This document shows, piece after piece, positions 28,554-41,703 of a stretch of 64,000 nt of DNA. A model generated the notes under the pieces. It had not been told where the DNA came from. It did no database searches and saw only the letters and a list, made by a program, of their open reading frames with translations. Source of the DNA: Actinoplanes oblitus (GTDB taxonomy: Bacteria; Actinomycetota; Actinomycetes; Mycobacteriales; Micromonosporaceae). A program made the position numbers and the translations under genes. Each line of letters begins with the position of its first letter. Positions within the stretch are counted from its first letter, which is position 1. The DNA lies in assembly GCF_030252345.1 (NCBI RefSeq), contig NZ_CP126980.1, positions 4,975,501-5,039,500 on the forward strand, given 5' to 3'.

Positions 28554-31512
<2,959 letters not shown>

Positions 31513-33113: not shown

Positions 33114-36100
33114 TCAGGCCAGTTCGGCCCGGGCGACCAGGTGCGCGAGCAGGTCCACCGGGAACTTGGCGAGATGGTTGGTGGCGGTCGGGGTCAGCAA
33201 CAGCATCTCGAGGGCGGTGTCGCCGTCGGTGGTGTCGTGGGTCGTACCGTCGAGGCTCATCAGCTCGGCCAGGACGGCGGCCTGTCGTTCCGGGTCGCCG
33301 ATCCGCCGGGCCGCGGCGACCGCCCGCCGGGCGGCCCGCGCGGCGCCGGCGTCGTGGGCCGCGCGCTGTTCCAGCCGGGTGAGTTCGCGCAGGATCCGGC
33401 ACTGCGTCTCCGGTGACCCGATCGCGTCACCGGCCAGCAGGATCCTGGCGCCGGCCAGTGCGGCCTGTTGCGTGGCGCCGGCCTCGTGCAGCACGGCGGC
33501 CAGGCGCAACAGGGCGTCGCAGCGGTCCGCCGGGTCGGTGATGGTGTCGCCGGCCGTGAGGGCCTCCCGGGCGGCGTGCGCGGCCTGCTCGGTGCGGCCG
33601 ATCGTGTGCAGGTCACGGGTGATGTCGGTGAGCGTCGCGCAGCGCGCCACACCATCGGTGATCGCCTCGGCGGTTCGCACGGCGGCGTCGCCCTGCCCAC
33701 CGGCGGCCAGGGTGGCGGCGACGGCGGCGAGCACGACGGTACGCCGGTGCGGGAGTGGCATCGCTGAGGCGGCGGCCCGGGCGGCCTCCGCGTGGCCGAG
33801 GGCGGCCAGACAGCGGGCGACGGCGCTGAGGATGTCCACCCGCCTCGGCCCCCGTAGGTCGGCGGCGGACCGGGCGGCGGCGTCGGCTGACTGGCTCGCC
33901 GCGCTCTCGCTGTCGCGGGCCGACTGGCCCGTCGCGCTGTCGGCGGTGCGGGCCGATGGGCTCGCCTTGCTGCCGGCGGCGTTGGCTGACTGGTTCGCCC
34001 TGCTGTCGGAGCTGTCGGTGCTGTCGGGGCGGGCGGCCGCGGTGACCAGGCGGCGAACCTCGATCTCCGGCTTGCTCCGGCACAGCGAGGCGAGCGTGGC
34101 GAAGGGCGATGACGTGGACGACGGCTCCGGCGGCGGCGCGGTGGCGGACGGTGCCGGTCGGAGTGACTCCCTGGTCATCGGCGTCGAGCGGCCTCCGGCG
34201 CCGGTGCGCGTCGCGATGATCGTGGCGACGTCCCTTTCGGTGCGCCTGACGTGCGAGTTCATCTCGGCCCGGGTGGGCAGGTCGATGATCTGGCCGGCGG
34301 CCTGGATCGCCTCATCGAGGGCCTTCCGCGCCGGTTCCGGGCGGCCGGCGACGCTGAGCTGCCGCGCGACGTTGCTGAGGAGCAGGGCTCGCTCGTGGGG
34401 CTCGCGTGGCTGCCGGGCGAGGCGGAGTGCCTCCGCCGACGCGGCGGCGCCGTTCGCGGTGATGCTCGGGTGCTGGAAGGCGTGGGCGAGCGCGCACATC
34501 CCGTGGGCCCGCTGCGTCAGCTGGGCGAACCGGAGCACCGCCGCCTGGGCGAGTTCGGCCGCCTCGCTCGCCGGTTCGGCGAGGCCGGCGTCGGCGAGGC
34601 CGGTGGCGATCCTGGTCAGGGTGCTCACCCGGCTCGCCACGTCGCTCTGTTCCGTCGCGCTCCGCACGGCGAGTGTGGCCGCCCGGCCGGCGACGGCAAG
34701 CTGCTCGGCCCGCTGGCCGATGGCCTGCGGGGGAGAGGCAGCCGTGCGCTGGCCGGCCTGCGGGGGAGAGGGAGCCGTGCGCTGGCCGGCCTGCGGGAGA
34801 GGGATAGCCGTGCGCTGGTCGGTGGGGTGTGGGGGAGACGTGACGGCGTGCTGGTCGGTCGGTGGGCCGGTGGCGAGTCCGAGAGAGGCGATCGCGCGGT
34901 GACCCGGGTCGTCGATCAGGGTGGCGGTGTCGAGGGCTGCCGCCGGGTGCCCGCCGTCGGCGAGTGCCCGGGCCACCTCCGCGAACAGGTCGTCCCGATC
35001 GGTCCGCTCGGTCGCCGCGCCGACGGCCGTCCGGGCCAGGCCGGCCTGACCGGCCCGGGCCAGGTCCAGGCTCAGGCGGCGGACCGCGTGGGTGCGCTGT
35101 GACGGGTCGGCGATCGCCGCGACCGCCTGGAGCGCCTGCGCCATGGTGCGGCCGGCCGGCCGGTCCTGACCGGCCCGGGCCAGCGCCACCGTCAGGTCGG
35201 CGAGCGTCCCGGCCCGCCGCTGCGGGTCGTAGATCGCGCCCGCGACGGTGGCGGCCGCGGTGGCCGCCGCGTTCGCCTCGTCGGTGCGGCCGGCCGCGGC
35301 GAGCGCCCGCGCCAGCCGGCCATAGCTCTCCGCCCGCAGCGCGAGGTCGTCGATCCACTCGACGGCGGTCCGGGCCTGGTCGAGGTAGCCGGCCTCGGCC
35401 AGCCGGATCGTCACCGCGCCGATGATCTCCGGGTCACGCCAGTGATACGTGCCCATCATCGCCTGCACCGCCTCGTCGGCGGTGGCCTCGGCCGCCTGCC
35501 GGTGACCGCTCTGTGCCAGTCCCAGCGCCACGTGGCTGAGCACCATGGCGCGGTACTCGTCGCCGGTGACCTGCCGGGCCGCCGCGATCGCCGTCTCCGG
35601 CCGGCCGGCGGCGGCCGCCGCGCGGGCCAGCACGTCGATGGACCGTTCGCGCGCCGACGACTCGGGCAGCGCGGCGGCGGCCCGCAGCGCGAGCGCGAAC
35701 CAGCCGGCCTGGGCCAGGGTCGTGGACACCGTGCCGAGCAGCCGGTTGCGGGTGTCCGGCCGCTGCTCGTCCTCGGCCGCCCGGACGGCGCTCTCCGCGA
35801 TCGGCGCCGCCTCGGTCTCCAGGCCGCCCGCGGCCAGCTGGGCGGCCAGCTCGGCGAGCCTGGTCGCCCGGTCGGTCGAGCTGGTGATCTCCAGGGCGAG
35901 CCGGTGCGCTCGGTCCACCGCGCGGGCGGCCTCGTCCGCGCGCCGCTGCTCGCGCAGCGAGCAGGCCAGCACACCCAGGCCGTGGATGCGGCGGTCGGCG
36001 GCGTCGATCCGGTCGACCATCTCGTACGCCCGGCCGGGCTCGCCGTCCCGGGCGTACGAGATCGCGACCTCGGTGATCACCTTGGCCCGCTGCCAGTGGT

Positions 36101-39100
36101 CGTCGAGCCGTTTCACCTCGGCCATCGCCTCGACCGGCCGTCCCGCGTGGGCCAGCGCGTCCAGTGCCGACCCGAGCATCCGGATCCGGGTGCTGCGGTC
36201 CTTGATCTGGTACACCAGGTCGACCGCCCGCTGCGCGGTGGCCGCGGCCTTCTCCTGGTAACCGGCCCGCACCAGCGGGCGTACCGCGGCCACGAGCGTC
36301 GCGACCTCGTCCTCCGGCGTGGCGTCCCGGGGTGCGGCGACCATCTCGTCGATCAGCCGAGCGGCGTCGCGGTCCCGGCCCGCCTCGGCGAACGCGTGGG
36401 CGAGCCGGCCGAAGGCGTCCATCAAGGCGAGCCGCTCGGCGGTGTCGGACGGTATCGCGGGGGCGATCCGGGCGATCTCCGAGCCGAGCGCCGGGTCGCC
36501 GGCGGGCGCGGACCGCAGCAGGCCGGCCAGCGTCTCGATCCGGCCGACGGGGTCGATGACGCGGCCGGCCAGCCGCACCGCGGGCGCCGTCCGGCCCGCC
36601 TCGGCCAGGGCGCGGGCCGCCGCGGCGAACGCCCGGTCCTCGTCGGCCGGGCGGCCGGTCGCCCGGGCCACGGCGAGCCGCACGACACGCTCGACGAGGT
36701 CCGGCCCGGATCGGGCGGCGAGGGCGGCGGCCAGGCCGGCCAGGCTGATCGCGGCCAGGTAGGCGGGCCACCGGGTGCTCACCGTGGTGACCAGGTCGGC
36801 CGCCTTCGCCGCGTCGCCCAGCCCGATCAGTGCCCGCACCATCCGGTCGACCACCTGGGCCTGCCGGACCGGATCGGCCAGCGCCGGCACGTCCGCGCCG
36901 GCCTTGTCGACGGCCGCCGCGGCCAGGTCCGGCCGGTCGGCGCAGAGCCGTTCCGCCACGTCGGCGAGGGCGAGCGCCCGCAGCCACCGGTCGGCGATCT
37001 GGGTGGCGATGGCGTACGCCTCCGGCTCGGCGGACGTCTCGGCCAGACCGGTGGCGACGTCGCGGGCGACCGTCTCGGCGTCCGGATGGCCGCCGAGTTC
37101 GGCGAGGGCGCGCAGCGCCGGCTCGACGTCGCCGCGCGCGGCCAGCAGCCGGGCCACGTCGGCCAGGGCCATGCCGCGTTCCAGCGGGTCGTCGATGCCG
37201 GTGGCCAGGGCGACAGCGGCCGGCGAACGCCCGGTGCGCGCCCAGGTCCGGGCGATGGCCGAGGCGACCCCGGCCCGGGTGGTGGTCAGCGGCTGCCGGC
37301 GCAGGGCCAGCGCGGCCAGCCGGAACGACATCTCGGCCGGGTCGAGGCCCAGGCCGGCGCCGAAGTCCACGATGATCTGCTGGGCCGCGGCGATGTCGGC
37401 GTCCGGGGCGGCCGGATTGCCGACGTACTCGAACAGCCGCAGCAGCCGGTCGCGGTCGGCGACCAGGGCGAACAACCGGTCCAGGGCGGCTCGCCGCCGC
37501 TCGGTCGGCGCTGTCGTGTCGCGGACCCGTTCGGCGAGCTGGCGCGCGTACGGCCGGAGCAGGTACCGCGGCGTGGCCAGCGGCCAGTGCCGGCCGGTGT
37601 ACTCGTCGGCCCACCCGTCCAGCAGCTGGTAGTAGCGCGGCAGATCGCCGGTGAACCGGTGCTGGGCCTCGACCAGCAGCCGGTCGTGCGCGAAGACGAA
37701 GACGGACATCGGGCCGCCCTCCGGATCGGCGATCTCGATGACGCTGCGGCCCAGTCCGTGCCGCAGCGACTCCTCGATCTCGCTGACGTCGAAGTCGCGC
37801 CCGCGCCGGCGCAGGATCTCCTCGAGTTCCGCTGCCGACAGGCCGGTGTACGACATCGCGAGGCAGCTCAGGATCGGCGACAGGTGCCCGCCGGGATGGG
37901 TCCGGATGCGGTCGATCTCGGCGCGGACCACCTCGTGCATGTCGTTCGCGATCTCGGCCGGGGCGATCGGGGTCTGGTGGTGGCGCAACGGGTGATCGGC
38001 GGGCAGTTCGACGGTGGCGCCGGACCGGCTGGCCGCCACCAGGGTCACCCCGGCCGGCAGTGACGTCCGATCGGGCAGCCAGTCCAGGCCGCCCCGGGTG
38101 GTGTCGTACTCGTCGAGGCCGTCCACGACGAGCATGAGCCGCTGGCCCCGCTGCCGGACCGCGGCGGCCGCCTCGGGCAGCAGCACGAGCAGGTCGTCGA
38201 CCAGGTCGGCCAGGTAGTGCGAGGGACGGTACTCGGGCCGGCCGGCGATGGCCGCGAGCTGGCGGGTCAGCAGGTCCAGGGCGTACTCGGCGGTGTTCTC
38301 GCCGGTCGGGCGGCGCAGGAAGCAGGAGGCGACCTCGATCTCCGGTGGCGGCCGCAGCGTGAACCAGGCCAGCAGCGCGGTCTTGCCGGCGTACGCCTCG
38401 GCCACGATCCACCGCCACGCGGTGTCGGACGCGGCCAGCGTGCGCAACTCGTCCTGCTCCCGCTCGCGGCTGAGCAGGTAGACCGGGGCGAGGCGCCCGG
38501 CCACCCGCTGGGCACGGCGCACCTCGCTCTGGCGCAGGCTCGGCGGGTCGATCGGCACCAGCCCGTCCACCGACTCGGGAAGGTGCGCGAGCGCCTGCCG
38601 CCACCGGGCGATCGCGGCGGCGTCCGCGCCGGCGTAGAGGTTCGCCAGCGGACGGACGGTGAGGACGCCGGCGCCCTCGGCCGGGTGGTGCTGCCCGACG
38701 ACACCGAGCAGCCGCTGGCCCGACCACACCGGCCCGCCCGACATCCCCTCCCACGGCGAGTGCGGGTCGCCGGGGTGGTCGGCCGGGGCGGCGTCGACCC
38801 TCAGCTCCAGCGTGCCGGTCTTGTAGTTGGAGGCGGGAGCGATGGTGCCCAGGGCATGGCGGTGGTCGCGGACCAGGTCGTCGGACGCGGCGCCAGGCCG
38901 CAGCTTGAAGCGGGGGAAGCCGACCGCCGCCACCGGGATCTCGTTCGGTGCGGACCGGCGGACCCGGCCGAAGATCACCGGGTCGCCGCCGGTCAGGCCC
39001 GGCACCGGGACCAGTGCCAGGTCGGCCCAGGGCGCGGCCACCACCTGGTCCAGGTCGACCGGCAGGCCGGCGCCGGGATCGAGCCGGGCCGGTGCGCCGA

Positions 39101-39254
39101 GCCACACGCCGGCCGCCCGCGCGCCCGCCACCACGTGGTACGCGGTGAGCACCCAGCCGGGGGCGACCAGGTAGCCGGAGCCGCGGGCCATCGGCTCGCC
39201 CGGCCGCCGGACCGCGATCTCGGCGAGGCGCTCCCGCGCCGGGTGCTGATCCAC
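33114..39254 (-). CDS. Trypsin-STAND NTPase with long helical repeat region
   Basis: A 2046-residue protein. Residues 20-210 are a trypsin-like serine protease with His40 (TAYHVV), Asp78 (WADLAL) and Ser172 (EGMSGGPVW), all three present. Residues about 260-560 form a STAND/NACHT-type NTPase: Walker A AEAYAGKT (Lys291) and Walker B LMLVVDGLDEYD (Asp378), followed by a winged-helix-like region. From about 640 to the end come some 25 TPR-like repeats (RALALADVAERL, LARALAAAGRTDEA and similar), interrupted by two low-complexity inserts. This architecture is that of bacterial STAND conflict proteins in which the repeats sense a trigger, the NTPase oligomerises and the protease is the effector (family knowledge). 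The upstream gene is a trypco2 protein, 32 bp away, in the same operon. ATG 39254. Confidence 0.9.
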   Translation of the reverse strand: MDQHPARERLAEIAVRRPGEPMARGSGYLVAPGWVLTAYHVVAGARAAGVWLGAPARLDPGAGLPVDLDQVVAAPWADLALVPVPGLTGGDPVIFGRVRRSAPNEIPVAAVGFPRFKLRPGAASDDLVRDHRHALGTIAPASNYKTGTLELRVDAAPADHPGDPHSPWEGMSGGPVWSGQRLLGVVGQHHPAEGAGVLTVRPLANLYAGADAAAIARWRQALAHLPESVDGLVPIDPPSLRQSEVRRAQRVAGRLAPVYLLSREREQDELRTLAASDTAWRWIVAEAYAGKTALLAWFTLRPPPEIEVASCFLRRPTGENTAEYALDLLTRQLAAIAGRPEYRPSHYLADLVDDLLVLLPEAAAAVRQRGQRLMLVVDGLDEYDTTRGGLDWLPDRTSLPAGVTLVAASRSGATVELPADHPLRHHQTPIAPAEIANDMHEVVRAEIDRIRTHPGGHLSPILSCLAMSYTGLSAAELEEILRRRGRDFDVSEIEESLRHGLGRSVIEIADPEGGPMSVFVFAHDRLLVEAQHRFTGDLPRYYQLLDGWADEYTGRHWPLATPRYLLRPYARQLAERVRDTTAPTERRRAALDRLFALVADRDRLLRLFEYVGNPAAPDADIAAAQQIIVDFGAGLGLDPAEMSFRLAALALRRQPLTTTRAGVASAIARTWARTGRSPAAVALATGIDDPLERGMALADVARLLAARGDVEPALRALAELGGHPDAETVARDVATGLAETSAEPEAYAIATQIADRWLRALALADVAERLCADRPDLAAAAVDKAGADVPALADPVRQAQVVDRMVRALIGLGDAAKAADLVTTVSTRWPAYLAAISLAGLAAALAARSGPDLVERVVRLAVARATGRPADEDRAFAAAARALAEAGRTAPAVRLAGRVIDPVGRIETLAGLLRSAPAGDPALGSEIARIAPAIPSDTAERLALMDAFGRLAHAFAEAGRDRDAARLIDEMVAAPRDATPEDEVATLVAAVRPLVRAGYQEKAAATAQRAVDLVYQIKDRSTRIRMLGSALDALAHAGRPVEAMAEVKRLDDHWQRAKVITEVAISYARDGEPGRAYEMVDRIDAADRRIHGLGVLACSLREQRRADEAARAVDRAHRLALEITSSTDRATRLAELAAQLAAGGLETEAAPIAESAVRAAEDEQRPDTRNRLLGTVSTTLAQAGWFALALRAAAALPESSARERSIDVLARAAAAAGRPETAIAAARQVTGDEYRAMVLSHVALGLAQSGHRQAAEATADEAVQAMMGTYHWRDPEIIGAVTIRLAEAGYLDQARTAVEWIDDLALRAESYGRLARALAAAGRTDEANAAATAAATVAGAIYDPQRRAGTLADLTVALARAGQDRPAGRTMAQALQAVAAIADPSQRTHAVRRLSLDLARAGQAGLARTAVGAATERTDRDDLFAEVARALADGGHPAAALDTATLIDDPGHRAIASLGLATGPPTDQHAVTSPPHPTDQRTAIPLPQAGQRTAPSPPQAGQRTAASPPQAIGQRAEQLAVAGRAATLAVRSATEQSDVASRVSTLTRIATGLADAGLAEPASEAAELAQAAVLRFAQLTQRAHGMCALAHAFQHPSITANGAAASAEALRLARQPREPHERALLLSNVARQLSVAGRPEPARKALDEAIQAAGQIIDLPTRAEMNSHVRRTERDVATIIATRTGAGGRSTPMTRESLRPAPSATAPPPEPSSTSSPFATLASLCRSKPEIEVRRLVTAAARPDSTDSSDSRANQSANAAGSKASPSARTADSATGQSARDSESAASQSADAAARSAADLRGPRRVDILSAVARCLAALGHAEAARAAASAMPLPHRRTVVLAAVAATLAAGGQGDAAVRTAEAITDGVARCATLTDITRDLHTIGRTEQAAHAAREALTAGDTITDPADRCDALLRLAAVLHEAGATQQAALAGARILLAGDAIGSPETQCRILRELTRLEQRAAHDAGAARAARRAVAAARRIGDPERQAAVLAELMSLDGTTHDTTDGDTALEMLLLTPTATNHLAKFPVDLLAHLVARAELA
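34741..34840. repeat. 33-bp in-frame tandem repeat in the STAND gene
   Basis: GCCGTGCGCTGG begins at 34741, 34774 and 34807, a 33-bp (11-codon) period. The repeats encode Gln/Thr/Pro-rich units in a linker between blocks of helical repeats, and their copy number could vary without a frameshift. Confidence 0.75.
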
Positions 39255-39286
39255 CTACGGCTCCCGGACCCGGCGTGCCGCGCGGG

Positions 39287-39688
39287 TCAGGAGTGGTGCC
39301 CCAGCGAGGGGAGCTCCTCGCCCGGGGCGAAGGCGCCGTGCACGTCCAGCCCGCGGGTGACCACTGTGGTGGCGCCCGTCTGGTCCACGGTCGCCACCTC
39401 GACCCTCGGCTTGAGCTTGAGGGAGATGCGCTGGGTGTTGGCCTGGGCCGAGCCGAGCGCGCCCTTGACGGCGGCCTCGGCCGAGGCGACCACCCAGAAC
39501 TTGGCGCCGATCTTGCCGGACGTCTCGGCGGACCGGGTGGTCGTGTAGACCACGTCCATGGTTATCTCGATCTCGTCGATGCCCAGTCTCAGCTGCTGCC
39601 CGTCGGCGGCGCTCTGTGCCTCGGTCAGTTCGGCCCGCAGGTCCCGCAGGAAGTCGGCCAGGCCGATCAGGGTCGCGTCGTCGGCCAC
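39287..39688 (-). CDS. Trypco2-domain protein
   Basis: A 133-residue protein beginning VADDATLIGLADFLRDLRAEL. Its features match the trypsin-co-occurring domain 2 (trypco2): the opening helix, QLRLGIDEIEITMDVVYTT, then GKIGAKFWVVASAEAAVKG and the strand RISLKLKPRV. These small proteins are encoded beside trypsin-NTPase conflict proteins and are thought to be their partner, sensor or substrate (comparative genomics by Aravind and colleagues, from memory). GTG 39688 has GGGAGGA with 6-bp spacing and is preferred over an ATG at 39718. It is the first gene of the operon with the STAND protein. Confidence 0.82.
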   Translation of the reverse strand: MADDATLIGLADFLRDLRAELTEAQSAADGQQLRLGIDEIEITMDVVYTTTRSAETSGKIGAKFWVVASAEAAVKGALGSAQANTQRISLKLKPRVEVATVDQTGATTVVTRGLDVHGAFAPGEELPSLGHHS

Positions 39689-39810
39689 CGCGTGTCCTCC
39701 CGCTCCGTCAGCGTGCACTGAGCCGAGTTAATACCCCGGGCGAGCCCGTTGTCCACGGTTTCCCCGCGTGCCGGGAGGGATGACCGGTGGCAGCTGTCCG
39801 CGGGCGGGGA

Positions 39811-40347: not shown

Positions 40348-41703
40348 TCAGCTCGCGGTGCAGGTGGGGATGGGCGCGGTGTTGGTGCCGGTCCAGGAGC
40401 CGAGGAAGCCGAACGAGGTGGTGGCCTTGGCGGCGAGGCTGCCGTTGTAGCCGGCGTTCCTGGCGGTGACGGCGGCGCCGCTGCTGGTCACGGTGGCGGA
40501 CCAGGCGTTGGCGACGGTCTGGCCGTTGGCGAAGGTCCAGGTGACCGTCCAGCCGCTGATCGGGGCGCTGCCGGCGGTCACCTTCACCTCGCCCTGGAAG
40601 CCGCCGGGCCACTGGCCGGTGATGGCGTAGGTGGCGGTGCAGGTCTTGCCGGTGGGCTGGGACGGCGACGGCGACGACGGGGAAGGCGACGACGGCGACG
40701 GCGAGGCGGGGGAGGAGGTCGAGGTGCCGCCGAAGACGGTGGCCTCCCGGGCGGTGGCCTTGATCCCGTTGGGGCCGTCGAAGACCCGGCTGTACCAGGT
40801 GGTCTTCTGGTTCACGTCGAAGTTGAGCACCATGTCCAGGACCGGGTCGGTGTTGCCGGACCACGACCAGCCGAGGTAGCCGAGGCCGCGCTTGACCGCC
40901 TCGGAGATCACCGTCTGGTCGTCGACCTCACCGGACGCGAACTGCCAGCCGAACTCGCCGATCAGCAGCGGCCAGCCCTTGGACCGGAAGGTGTCCAGGT
41001 ACGAGGTGATCGTCGAGGCCTGGTTGTAGACCGCGTACATGTGGATGGACAGGATGGTGTTGTGCTGGGTGTCGGCGTCCAGCACGGCCTGCCCGTTGGC
41101 GAGCATGACCTGCTGCCAGTCCTGTCCCCAGTTCGGGGCGTCGACCATCAGCAGGTGCTGGAAGCCGTTGTCGCGCATCTTCTTGATCGCGGCGGTGGTG
41201 GCGGCGGTCCACTGGCTCGGGTTGGTGTTGCCGATCGGCTCGTTGCCGATGTTGATCGCGACGTAGTCCTCCTGGCCGGCCAGGACGCTCTTCAGGCTGA
41301 TCCAGTAGTTGACGGCCTGGTCCAGGGTGTATGCGGCGCTGTCCTCGCCGTACCCGGTGGTGTCGTGGTCCTCCAGGACGCAGATCAGTCTGCTGGCCTT
41401 GCACAGGGAGATCACGTTGGCCACGTCGGCGGCGCTGTTCGCGGTCCACCGGCCGCCGGAGAGCACCACCCGGACGGTGTTCGCGCCGGCCGCCTTGATG
41501 TTGGCGAACGAACTGGTCTGTGAGGTGTACCAGGTGTGCGCGTGGTTGACGCCGCGCATGACGAACTTGTTGCCGTTCGCCTCGTAGATGTCGGTGCCGA
41601 CGACGTGCAGGCCGGTGGCGGCGTACGCGGGGCTGCCGAGGGCGATCACCGCGCCGACGGCGGCGAGCAGGGCGGCGCAGAGTGCGAGGAGGACTCTTCG
41701 CAT
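40348..41703 (-). CDS. GH5 endo-beta-mannanase-like enzyme with C-terminal CBM2
   Basis: A 451-residue secreted glycoside hydrolase. The signal peptide (residues 1-28, cleaved near PAYA) is followed by a GH5 barrel with acid/base Glu155 in NIGNEP and nucleophile Glu250 in LIGEFGW. VNHAHTWY and HMYAVY are marks of the mannanase branch (GH5_8) rather than cellulase. A linker of SPS repeats joins a CBM2 with Cys at both ends (CTATYAITGQWPGGFQGEVKV to IPTC). It probably hydrolyses mannan or glucomannan. A CelR-type palindrome sits upstream, so it is likely co-regulated with the cellulase at 28.7 kb. Confidence 0.9.
   Translation of the reverse strand: MRRVLLALCAALLAAVGAVIALGSPAYAATGLHVVGTDIYEANGNKFVMRGVNHAHTWYTSQTSSFANIKAAGANTVRVVLSGGRWTANSAADVANVISLCKASRLICVLEDHDTTGYGEDSAAYTLDQAVNYWISLKSVLAGQEDYVAINIGNEPIGNTNPSQWTAATTAAIKKMRDNGFQHLLMVDAPNWGQDWQQVMLANGQAVLDADTQHNTILSIHMYAVYNQASTITSYLDTFRSKGWPLLIGEFGWQFASGEVDDQTVISEAVKRGLGYLGWSWSGNTDPVLDMVLNFDVNQKTTWYSRVFDGPNGIKATAREATVFGGTSTSSPASPSPSSPSPSSPSPSQPTGKTCTATYAITGQWPGGFQGEVKVTAGSAPISGWTVTWTFANGQTVANAWSATVTSSGAAVTARNAGYNGSLAAKATTSFGFLGSWTGTNTAPIPTCTAS

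Follow-up and report, generated by a model that had tools for sequence, protein, structure and literature searches.

Trypco2 accompanies the protease domain of a candidate sensor-switch-protease module in Actinoplanes oblitus

Introduction

In Avs and bNACHT proteins, an effector domain is followed by a STAND (signal transduction ATPase with numerous domains) nucleoside triphosphatase (NTPase) and then by repeats that act as the sensor. Trypsin is found among the effector domains of related NTPase systems (PMC8195603), and activation of a metallo-β-lactamase (MBL) nuclease by a protease has been shown for Hachiman and AVAST (PMC12799240). Trypco2 was named for its position beside trypsins in the VMAP systems (eLife 2020, PMC7159879), in a paper that also mentions a STAND protein with an N-terminal trypsin; its role has been open since that naming in 2020, as far as we found. 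We describe a two-gene module of Actinoplanes oblitus on the minus strand of a stretch of 64,000 nucleotides (NZ_CP126980.1, positions 4,975,501 to 5,039,500; the window), in which a Trypco2 gene stands directly upstream of a gene for a 2046-residue protein with a serine protease, a STAND NTPase, and an array of tetratricopeptide repeat (TPR)-like repeats. With a probability of about one half, we read it as a signalling module resembling the nucleotide-binding leucine-rich repeat (NLR) proteins, in which Trypco2 would be the dedicated partner of the protease, most likely its first substrate, and would pass the signal on.

Results

A sequence-only reading of the window, made by a model without database searches, had placed a trypco2 gene and the large protein in a two-gene arrangement, and this was confirmed: the open reading frame (ORF) list puts the two genes on one strand with 32 bp between them, and the smaller product matches Pfam Trypco2 (PF19631) at 67.7 bits (cut-off, 24.2), the sole Trypco2 match in its genome. 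The gene end given in that reading, 39688, is the second in-frame GTG of the Trypco2 ORF, the longest form of which spans 39287 to 39718; the database version of the protein has 133 aa. The features that carry the argument are the following, in window positions.

33114..39254, minus strand: protease-STAND-repeat gene, an ORF with a GTG start encoding 2046 aa, supported by family matches
39287..39718, minus strand: Trypco2 gene, longest ORF of 143 aa from the first GTG, or 133 aa from the second in-frame GTG at 39688
39407..39667, minus strand: Trypco2 core domain of a helix and β-strands, residues 18 to 104, from the profile match and the AlphaFold model
39314..39343, minus strand: Trypco2 C-terminal tail motif VHGAFAPGEE, residues 126 to 135, conserved and beyond the Pfam model
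38580..39242, minus strand: V8/HtrA-like serine protease domain, about residues 5 to 225
39135-39137, 39021-39023, and 38739-38741, minus strand: catalytic codons of H40, D78, and S172

Among relatives, the presence of Trypco2 went with the protease part of the protein. In a sample of the family, a Trypco2 gene lay upstream on the same strand for 21 of the 24 matches covering both protease and STAND parts (one at 1.4 kb, the rest within 0.3 kb), for 19 of the 30 covering the protease part only, and for 2 of the 67 covering the STAND part only; the match places in this sample are lower bounds, because scoring was limited to five candidates in each genome. A sample of named loci, which shares at least 13 contigs with the family sample, gave 40/49 for protease-STAND matches (one at 1.35 kb, the rest within about 0.2 kb) versus 0/31 for the STAND part only.

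No other gene recurred to this extent over the 49 named loci. The next best families reached 9/49, start some 6 to 8 kb past the match start, and look like transporter genes. This bears on the view that Trypco2 is an adaptor recruiting other proteins to the protease, in line with the PNAS 2024 wording that terms Trypco1 and Trypco2 adapter domains (PMC10907252). However, since no further family recurs widely by the pair, any recruited protein would need its gene at another site, and we consider this role quite unlikely.

The protease-only matches mostly have another domain after the protease, namely NACHT, NB-ARC with TPR, CHAT with AAA16 and TPR, VMAP-C, or an nSTAND5-like NTPase, the last class comprising 10 proteins, 2 of them above the Pfam cut-off; two short proteins with this protease showed no NTPase match. 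With L075 left unscanned and L078 remaining undefined in this architecture scan, the Trypco2-protease pair was found on at least six NTPase or scaffold types, the STAND class of the window included. In a distance regression over 72 loci, from which eight duplicates had been removed, the Trypco2 core distance was explained by the protease distance (standardised coefficient, 0.78; largest of 500 permutations, 0.17) rather than by the NTPase class (0.11; largest permuted, 0.26), in a comparison that favours the protease because its graded distance is set against a coarse class label. As an example, a VMAP protein (L045) and a TPR protein whose nSTAND5 match is below threshold (L080) differ by 25% in their proteases and by 14% in their Trypco2 cores. 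Trypco2 divergence tracks the protease more than it tracks the NTPase class. This pattern supports Trypco2 being a dedicated partner of the protease, most likely a substrate or an inhibitor. The sequence-only reading had suggested a partner or substrate; the partnership stands and is now traced to the protease domain, for which Trypco2 may be a substrate or an inhibitor.

Some variants of the arrangement were also seen. In three Pseudonocardia loci (L088, L100, and L110), Trypco2 lies about 2.5 kb past the matched part on the same strand, not upstream. Two tandem Trypco2 matches, the second one weak, occur in a single 217-aa open frame (G012:C23:489800-490273). The two short proteins mentioned above (L068, 434 aa, and L070, 383 aa), which have a protease of this clade and a Trypco2, share a C-terminal ICxQFxAPSSxVWxALxRR motif that is perhaps an adaptor domain.

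The Trypco2 proteins of this group have a common order, in which the Pfam domain is followed by a linker of variable length and then by a short conserved terminal motif. Over 41 pairs, the motif had I, V, or L at position 126 in 41/41, G128 in 39/41, and E134 in 41/41, with a following R in 25/41, and close relatives of the window Trypco2 continue past it with a proline-rich end. A loose pattern of this tail, [IVL]x[GD]x(4-6)E, which shuffled tails match at 18%, was present at 53/53 loci of this protease clade versus 1/19 others when the clade was cut at a natural gap in protease score, and at 52/52 versus 2/20 with a cut of 176, below which L070 (175.6) drops. The tail was retained in all five loci in which this protease clade is joined to NACHT, NB-ARC, CHAT-AAA16, or no NTPase, and was missing in all six whose STAND class is the same but whose protease has diverged, although the latter contrast is weaker because the STAND part has also diverged there (profile scores, 234 to 261 versus 338 to 568). 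The tail is accompanied by a His-His pair 17 to 18 residues past the catalytic Ser (45/52 versus 1/20), in a region which we take to line the substrate cleft in this fold. In a wider search, a slightly looser pattern was found in 35 of 80 Trypco2 proteins, and others end differently, e.g., with EINDxVxxLPxR. The AlphaFold model of Trypco2 has a mean predicted local distance difference test (pLDDT) score of 74.4, with means of 74 for residues 121 to 130 and 61 for residues 131 to 140. From this co-variation, we read the tail as a putative recognition peptide for the protease.

The large protein has, besides the protease, the following parts.

38379..38396, minus strand: Walker A motif AYAGKT, residues 287 to 292, from sequence and conservation
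38109..38135, minus strand: Walker B motif MLVVDGLDE, residues 374 to 382, from sequence and conservation
37455..38534, minus strand: STAND NTPase region and the following helical part, about residues 241 to 600, from PADLOC STAND_TPR, the model, and Foldseek matches to 6mfv and 8dgc
33285..37454, minus strand: TPR-like repeat array, about residues 601 to 1990, broken by low-complexity linkers, from a repeat profile, periods of 33 and 40, and helical hairpins modelled to residue 884

Pfam Trypsin_2 matched the protein at 38.5 bits (cut-off, 27.6), and by its sequence and modelled fold it is a chymotrypsin-fold serine protease with an intact His-Asp-Ser triad. The Pfam NPHP3_N (19.4 bits) and NACHT (17.0 bits) matches fell under their cut-offs; the STAND assignment follows from a PADLOC STAND_TPR match of 130.6 bits over residues 251 to 1076, the conservation of the Walker residues, and an AlphaFold model of residues 1 to 885 (mean pLDDT, 90.2) with its Foldseek matches. 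The latter included many proteases, the STAND-TPR crystal structure 6mfv (E = 6.4e-7), and Avs3 (8dgc; E = 2.5e-6), with low whole-model TM-scores for the last two (0.21 and 0.17, respectively). His40, Asp78, Ser172, and Lys291 are all located where the sequence-only reading had put them. In an alignment of the window protein with 55 homologues, picked from the 120 listed among 170 matches, S172, K291, D378, and E382 were kept in 56/56, H40 in 55/56 (one gap), and D78 in 55/56; the loss of trypsin or Walker residues in close homologues, named beforehand as a reason to give up the proposal, was thus not seen in this alignment.

The repeats were not recognised by Pfam TPR models at E = 0.1. Residue autocorrelation of the protein peaks at 33 and 40, and an iterated repeat profile gave 28 matches at a domain E of <0.5, two of which (residues 329 and 570) precede the array. 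Of the 28, 18 score >10 bits. The earlier count of about 25 TPR-like repeats is a fair upper estimate, with 18 clear copies and some degenerate ones. The array varies far more than the rest of the chain. From 1133 pairs among 86 proteins, we took the 60 whose N-termini are most alike; in 60/60, similarity was lower past residue 660 than over the first 640 residues, with mean identities of 47% and 75%, respectively (e.g., 28% versus 78% for P0013/P0023 and 36% versus 78% for L092/L127). The ratio of nonsynonymous to synonymous substitution rates (dN/dS) in ten close pairs, chosen by hand from named loci, was 0.46 to 0.78 for the repeats, 0.15 to 0.34 for the protease, and 0.19 to 0.38 for the NTPase; dS was somewhat higher in the repeats in most of these pairs, and repeat windows with a ratio of nonsynonymous to synonymous differences per site (pN/pS) of ≥1 were present in 8/10. 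The repeats evolve much faster than the protease and NTPase, which fits relaxed constraint or positive selection alike, and the pattern supports a sensor-like behaviour of the array. Together with the fold and the near-invariant catalytic and Walker residues, it also supports the NLR-like logic that had been proposed for this protein, i.e., a predicted repeat sensor, NTPase switch, and protease effector in one chain.

In the array, 33-bp tandem DNA repeats at 34722-34822 and 33885-33979 (about 3 copies; 91% and 74 to 82% matches, respectively) encode repeated proline-rich and serine/alanine-rich linkers that interrupt it, and these may be slip-prone.

Residues 1 to 685 of the large protein were matched in 80 of 200 genomes of the family, and 9 of the 60 genomes from the genus contain a match to the window Trypco2, the own genome included in both counts. 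The 80 named loci, which are the best 80 of 427 relatives, all carry actinobacterial names, and one homologue comes from a record labelled Phenylobacterium. Relatives were found on 23 plasmid records (22 of Streptomyces and one of Rhodococcus), with 4 of the 15 listed reaching the protease part; no relative was found in phage records. The own genome also encodes a paralogue (C1:5787253-5789289; L042:7155-13034) of 1930 to 1959 aa with an intact triad, which shares 54% identity with the window protein in the protease, 40% in the STAND part, and 26% in the repeats.

The module sits between cellulose-degradation genes, with GH5-CBM2 and Cip1-like-CBM2 genes on one side (28664-31512) and another GH5-CBM2 gene on the other (40348-41703). 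Other neighbours encode a GGDEF protein and a SnoaL-like protein, the gene of the latter being the next one upstream beyond Trypco2. No MoxR, vWA, CRISPR protein, or defence domain was found by Pfam in 12 neighbour ORFs (26.6 to 33.1 kb and 39.8 to 47.2 kb, where some ORFs were left unscanned). For the window protease itself, the match to the LmuA profile is weak (E = 0.005). Four further proteins that were scanned, namely the paralogue and three with a linked Trypco2, gave matches to LmuA, HamA, Avs1b, or RT-protease at E = 2e-8 to 6e-4 across their protease region. An anti-phage action of the module is a plausible prediction.

Discussion

Our proposal for the module is as follows. The variable TPR-like array would sense a protein cue, and the STAND NTPase would then exchange nucleotide and oligomerise, as known STAND proteins do. 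Oligomerisation would bring the N-terminal V8/HtrA-like protease domains together and switch them on. Trypco2 would be bound by the protease via its conserved C-terminal tail, as the co-variation suggests. The nuclease-trypsin pairs make it most likely, by analogy, that Trypco2 is also the first substrate; its cleavage or release would transmit the signal, probably with growth arrest or cell death as the outcome.

Several observations weigh against this proposal. Trypco2 was not directly upstream of 3/24 and 9/49 protease-STAND genes in the two samples; for the nine, it was downstream in three, on the other strand in one, and nowhere in the fetched stretch in five. The paralogue of the own genome has no Trypco2 beside it; one Trypco2 may serve both protease-STAND proteins. 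Within the STAND class alone, the Trypco2 distance correlates with the NTPase (r = 0.732) and with the protease (r = 0.717) in a way that does not separate the two, and 2 of the 14 other loci outside the protease clade fit the tail pattern. Trypco2 showed no catalytic-looking invariant residues, and a hydropathy scan found a transmembrane segment in 0/72, which leaves an effector role for it with no visible mechanism. Last, the homologue neighbourhoods, which the sequence-only reading had proposed to survey for defence islands, had no excess of defence families when 125 neighbour genes were compared with 126 control genes from random regions.

The lack of catalytic-looking residues, of a transmembrane segment, and of a recognisable fold in Trypco2 makes an inhibitor or pseudosubstrate role nearly as good as that of a substrate. 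Trypco2 would then be an inhibitor or chaperone whose tail occupies the active-site cleft as a pseudosubstrate, holding the protease inactive up to the point where the tail is displaced by the STAND switch; host or phage proteins would be the real substrates. A small, single-domain protein with a conserved tail at its C terminus would suit this function, as would the His-His pair that accompanies the tail and the presence of two protease-STAND genes with one Trypco2 in the own genome. However, the paralogue and the five of 49 loci that lack Trypco2 across the fetched stretch show that the protease gene can occur with no inhibitor linked to it, and the one parallel studied in depth has a substrate as its upstream partner (PMC12799240). 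We regard inhibition as possible but rather doubtful.

The purpose of the module may also be other than defence, for example to bring about lysis or death of the cell during development or gene transfer, which would be compatible with any of the mechanisms above. The Caulobacter LypABC system, which is CARD-NLR-like and includes trypsin and TPR-STAND parts, serves for gene-transfer-agent lysis and is encoded outside defence islands (PMC13236601), an example of other ends for such modules, and the lack of defence-family enrichment around our loci would agree with such a purpose. However, the patchy spread, the plasmid relatives, and the fast sensor evolution point to conflict more than to a fixed role in development, and we think a non-defence purpose unlikely.

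With Trypco2 as substrate, a wider and tentative possibility, to which we give less weight than to the signalling module itself, is that Trypco2 and the V8/HtrA-like protease form a mobile protease-substrate cassette that fits NTPase sensors of at least six kinds (NPHP3-like STAND, NACHT, NB-ARC, nSTAND5-like, CHAT-AAA16-TPR, and VMAP). It would parallel the MBL nuclease-trypsin pairs, with Trypco2 in the place of the nuclease; the co-varying C-terminal tail would serve as a recognition code for each protease clade and Trypco2 as a non-enzymatic pro-effector. If Trypco2 is indeed a protease substrate, the predicted conflict systems gain a second, non-nuclease protease-substrate cassette common to unrelated sensors. 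The comparison made here links Trypco2 with the protease and not with the sensor, the short conserved tail beyond the known domain offers a place to test its role, and the fast-changing repeats beside a nearly fixed switch and protease make the comparison with NLRs quantitative.

Trypco2 beside trypsins and trypsin-STAND fusions have been described before. In the open-licence literature, we found no description of STAND-TPR proteins bearing the Trypco2-protease pair, of the pair being exchanged among classes of sensor, or of the tail, and these are new as far as we found; the same literature agrees with the earlier statement that the trigger and target of trypco2-coupled proteases are not established.

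Among known systems, the MoxR-vWA-VMAP ternary systems (PMC7159879) likewise have a Trypco2 gene by a trypsin-like protease and are predicted conflict systems of multicellular bacteria. They differ in that the window protein has no VMAP match (Pfam, E = 0.1), its 12 scanned neighbour ORFs include no MoxR or vWA, its protease is fused to STAND-TPR, and its Trypco2 tail is unlike that of the single VMAP locus sampled (L045). The MBL nuclease-trypsin pairs of Hachiman, AVAST, Lamassu, and DRT (Science 2025, PMC12799240) also have a separate gene upstream of a trypsin-fused defence protein and move as a pair between systems, and their LmuA, HamA, Avs1b, and RT-protease profiles are weakly matched by Trypco2-linked proteases; however, the upstream partner in the window is Trypco2, not a nuclease. 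The CARD-NLR systems, e.g., LypABC (PMC13236601) and the Lysobacter gasdermin operon, share the trypsin-like protease, the STAND with TPR repeats, and the NLR-like logic, but the protease and STAND-TPR of LypABC are separate chains joined via CARD, whereas those of the window are one chain. Pfam matched no CARD in the window protein, the model of which starts with the protease fold. CARDs are poorly detected by sequence. The Avs and bNACHT proteins have the same domain order as the window protein, and the Avs3 structure was among its Foldseek matches; the window module differs from them by its protease effector and its dedicated partner protein. Finally, PADLOC STAND_TPR (Xre-HTH, ATPase, and TPR, near cas1-less I-E in Streptomyces) has the STAND-TPR core in common with the window protein, which carries an N-terminal protease in place of the helix-turn-helix (HTH) and has no CRISPR protein in its scanned neighbour ORFs.
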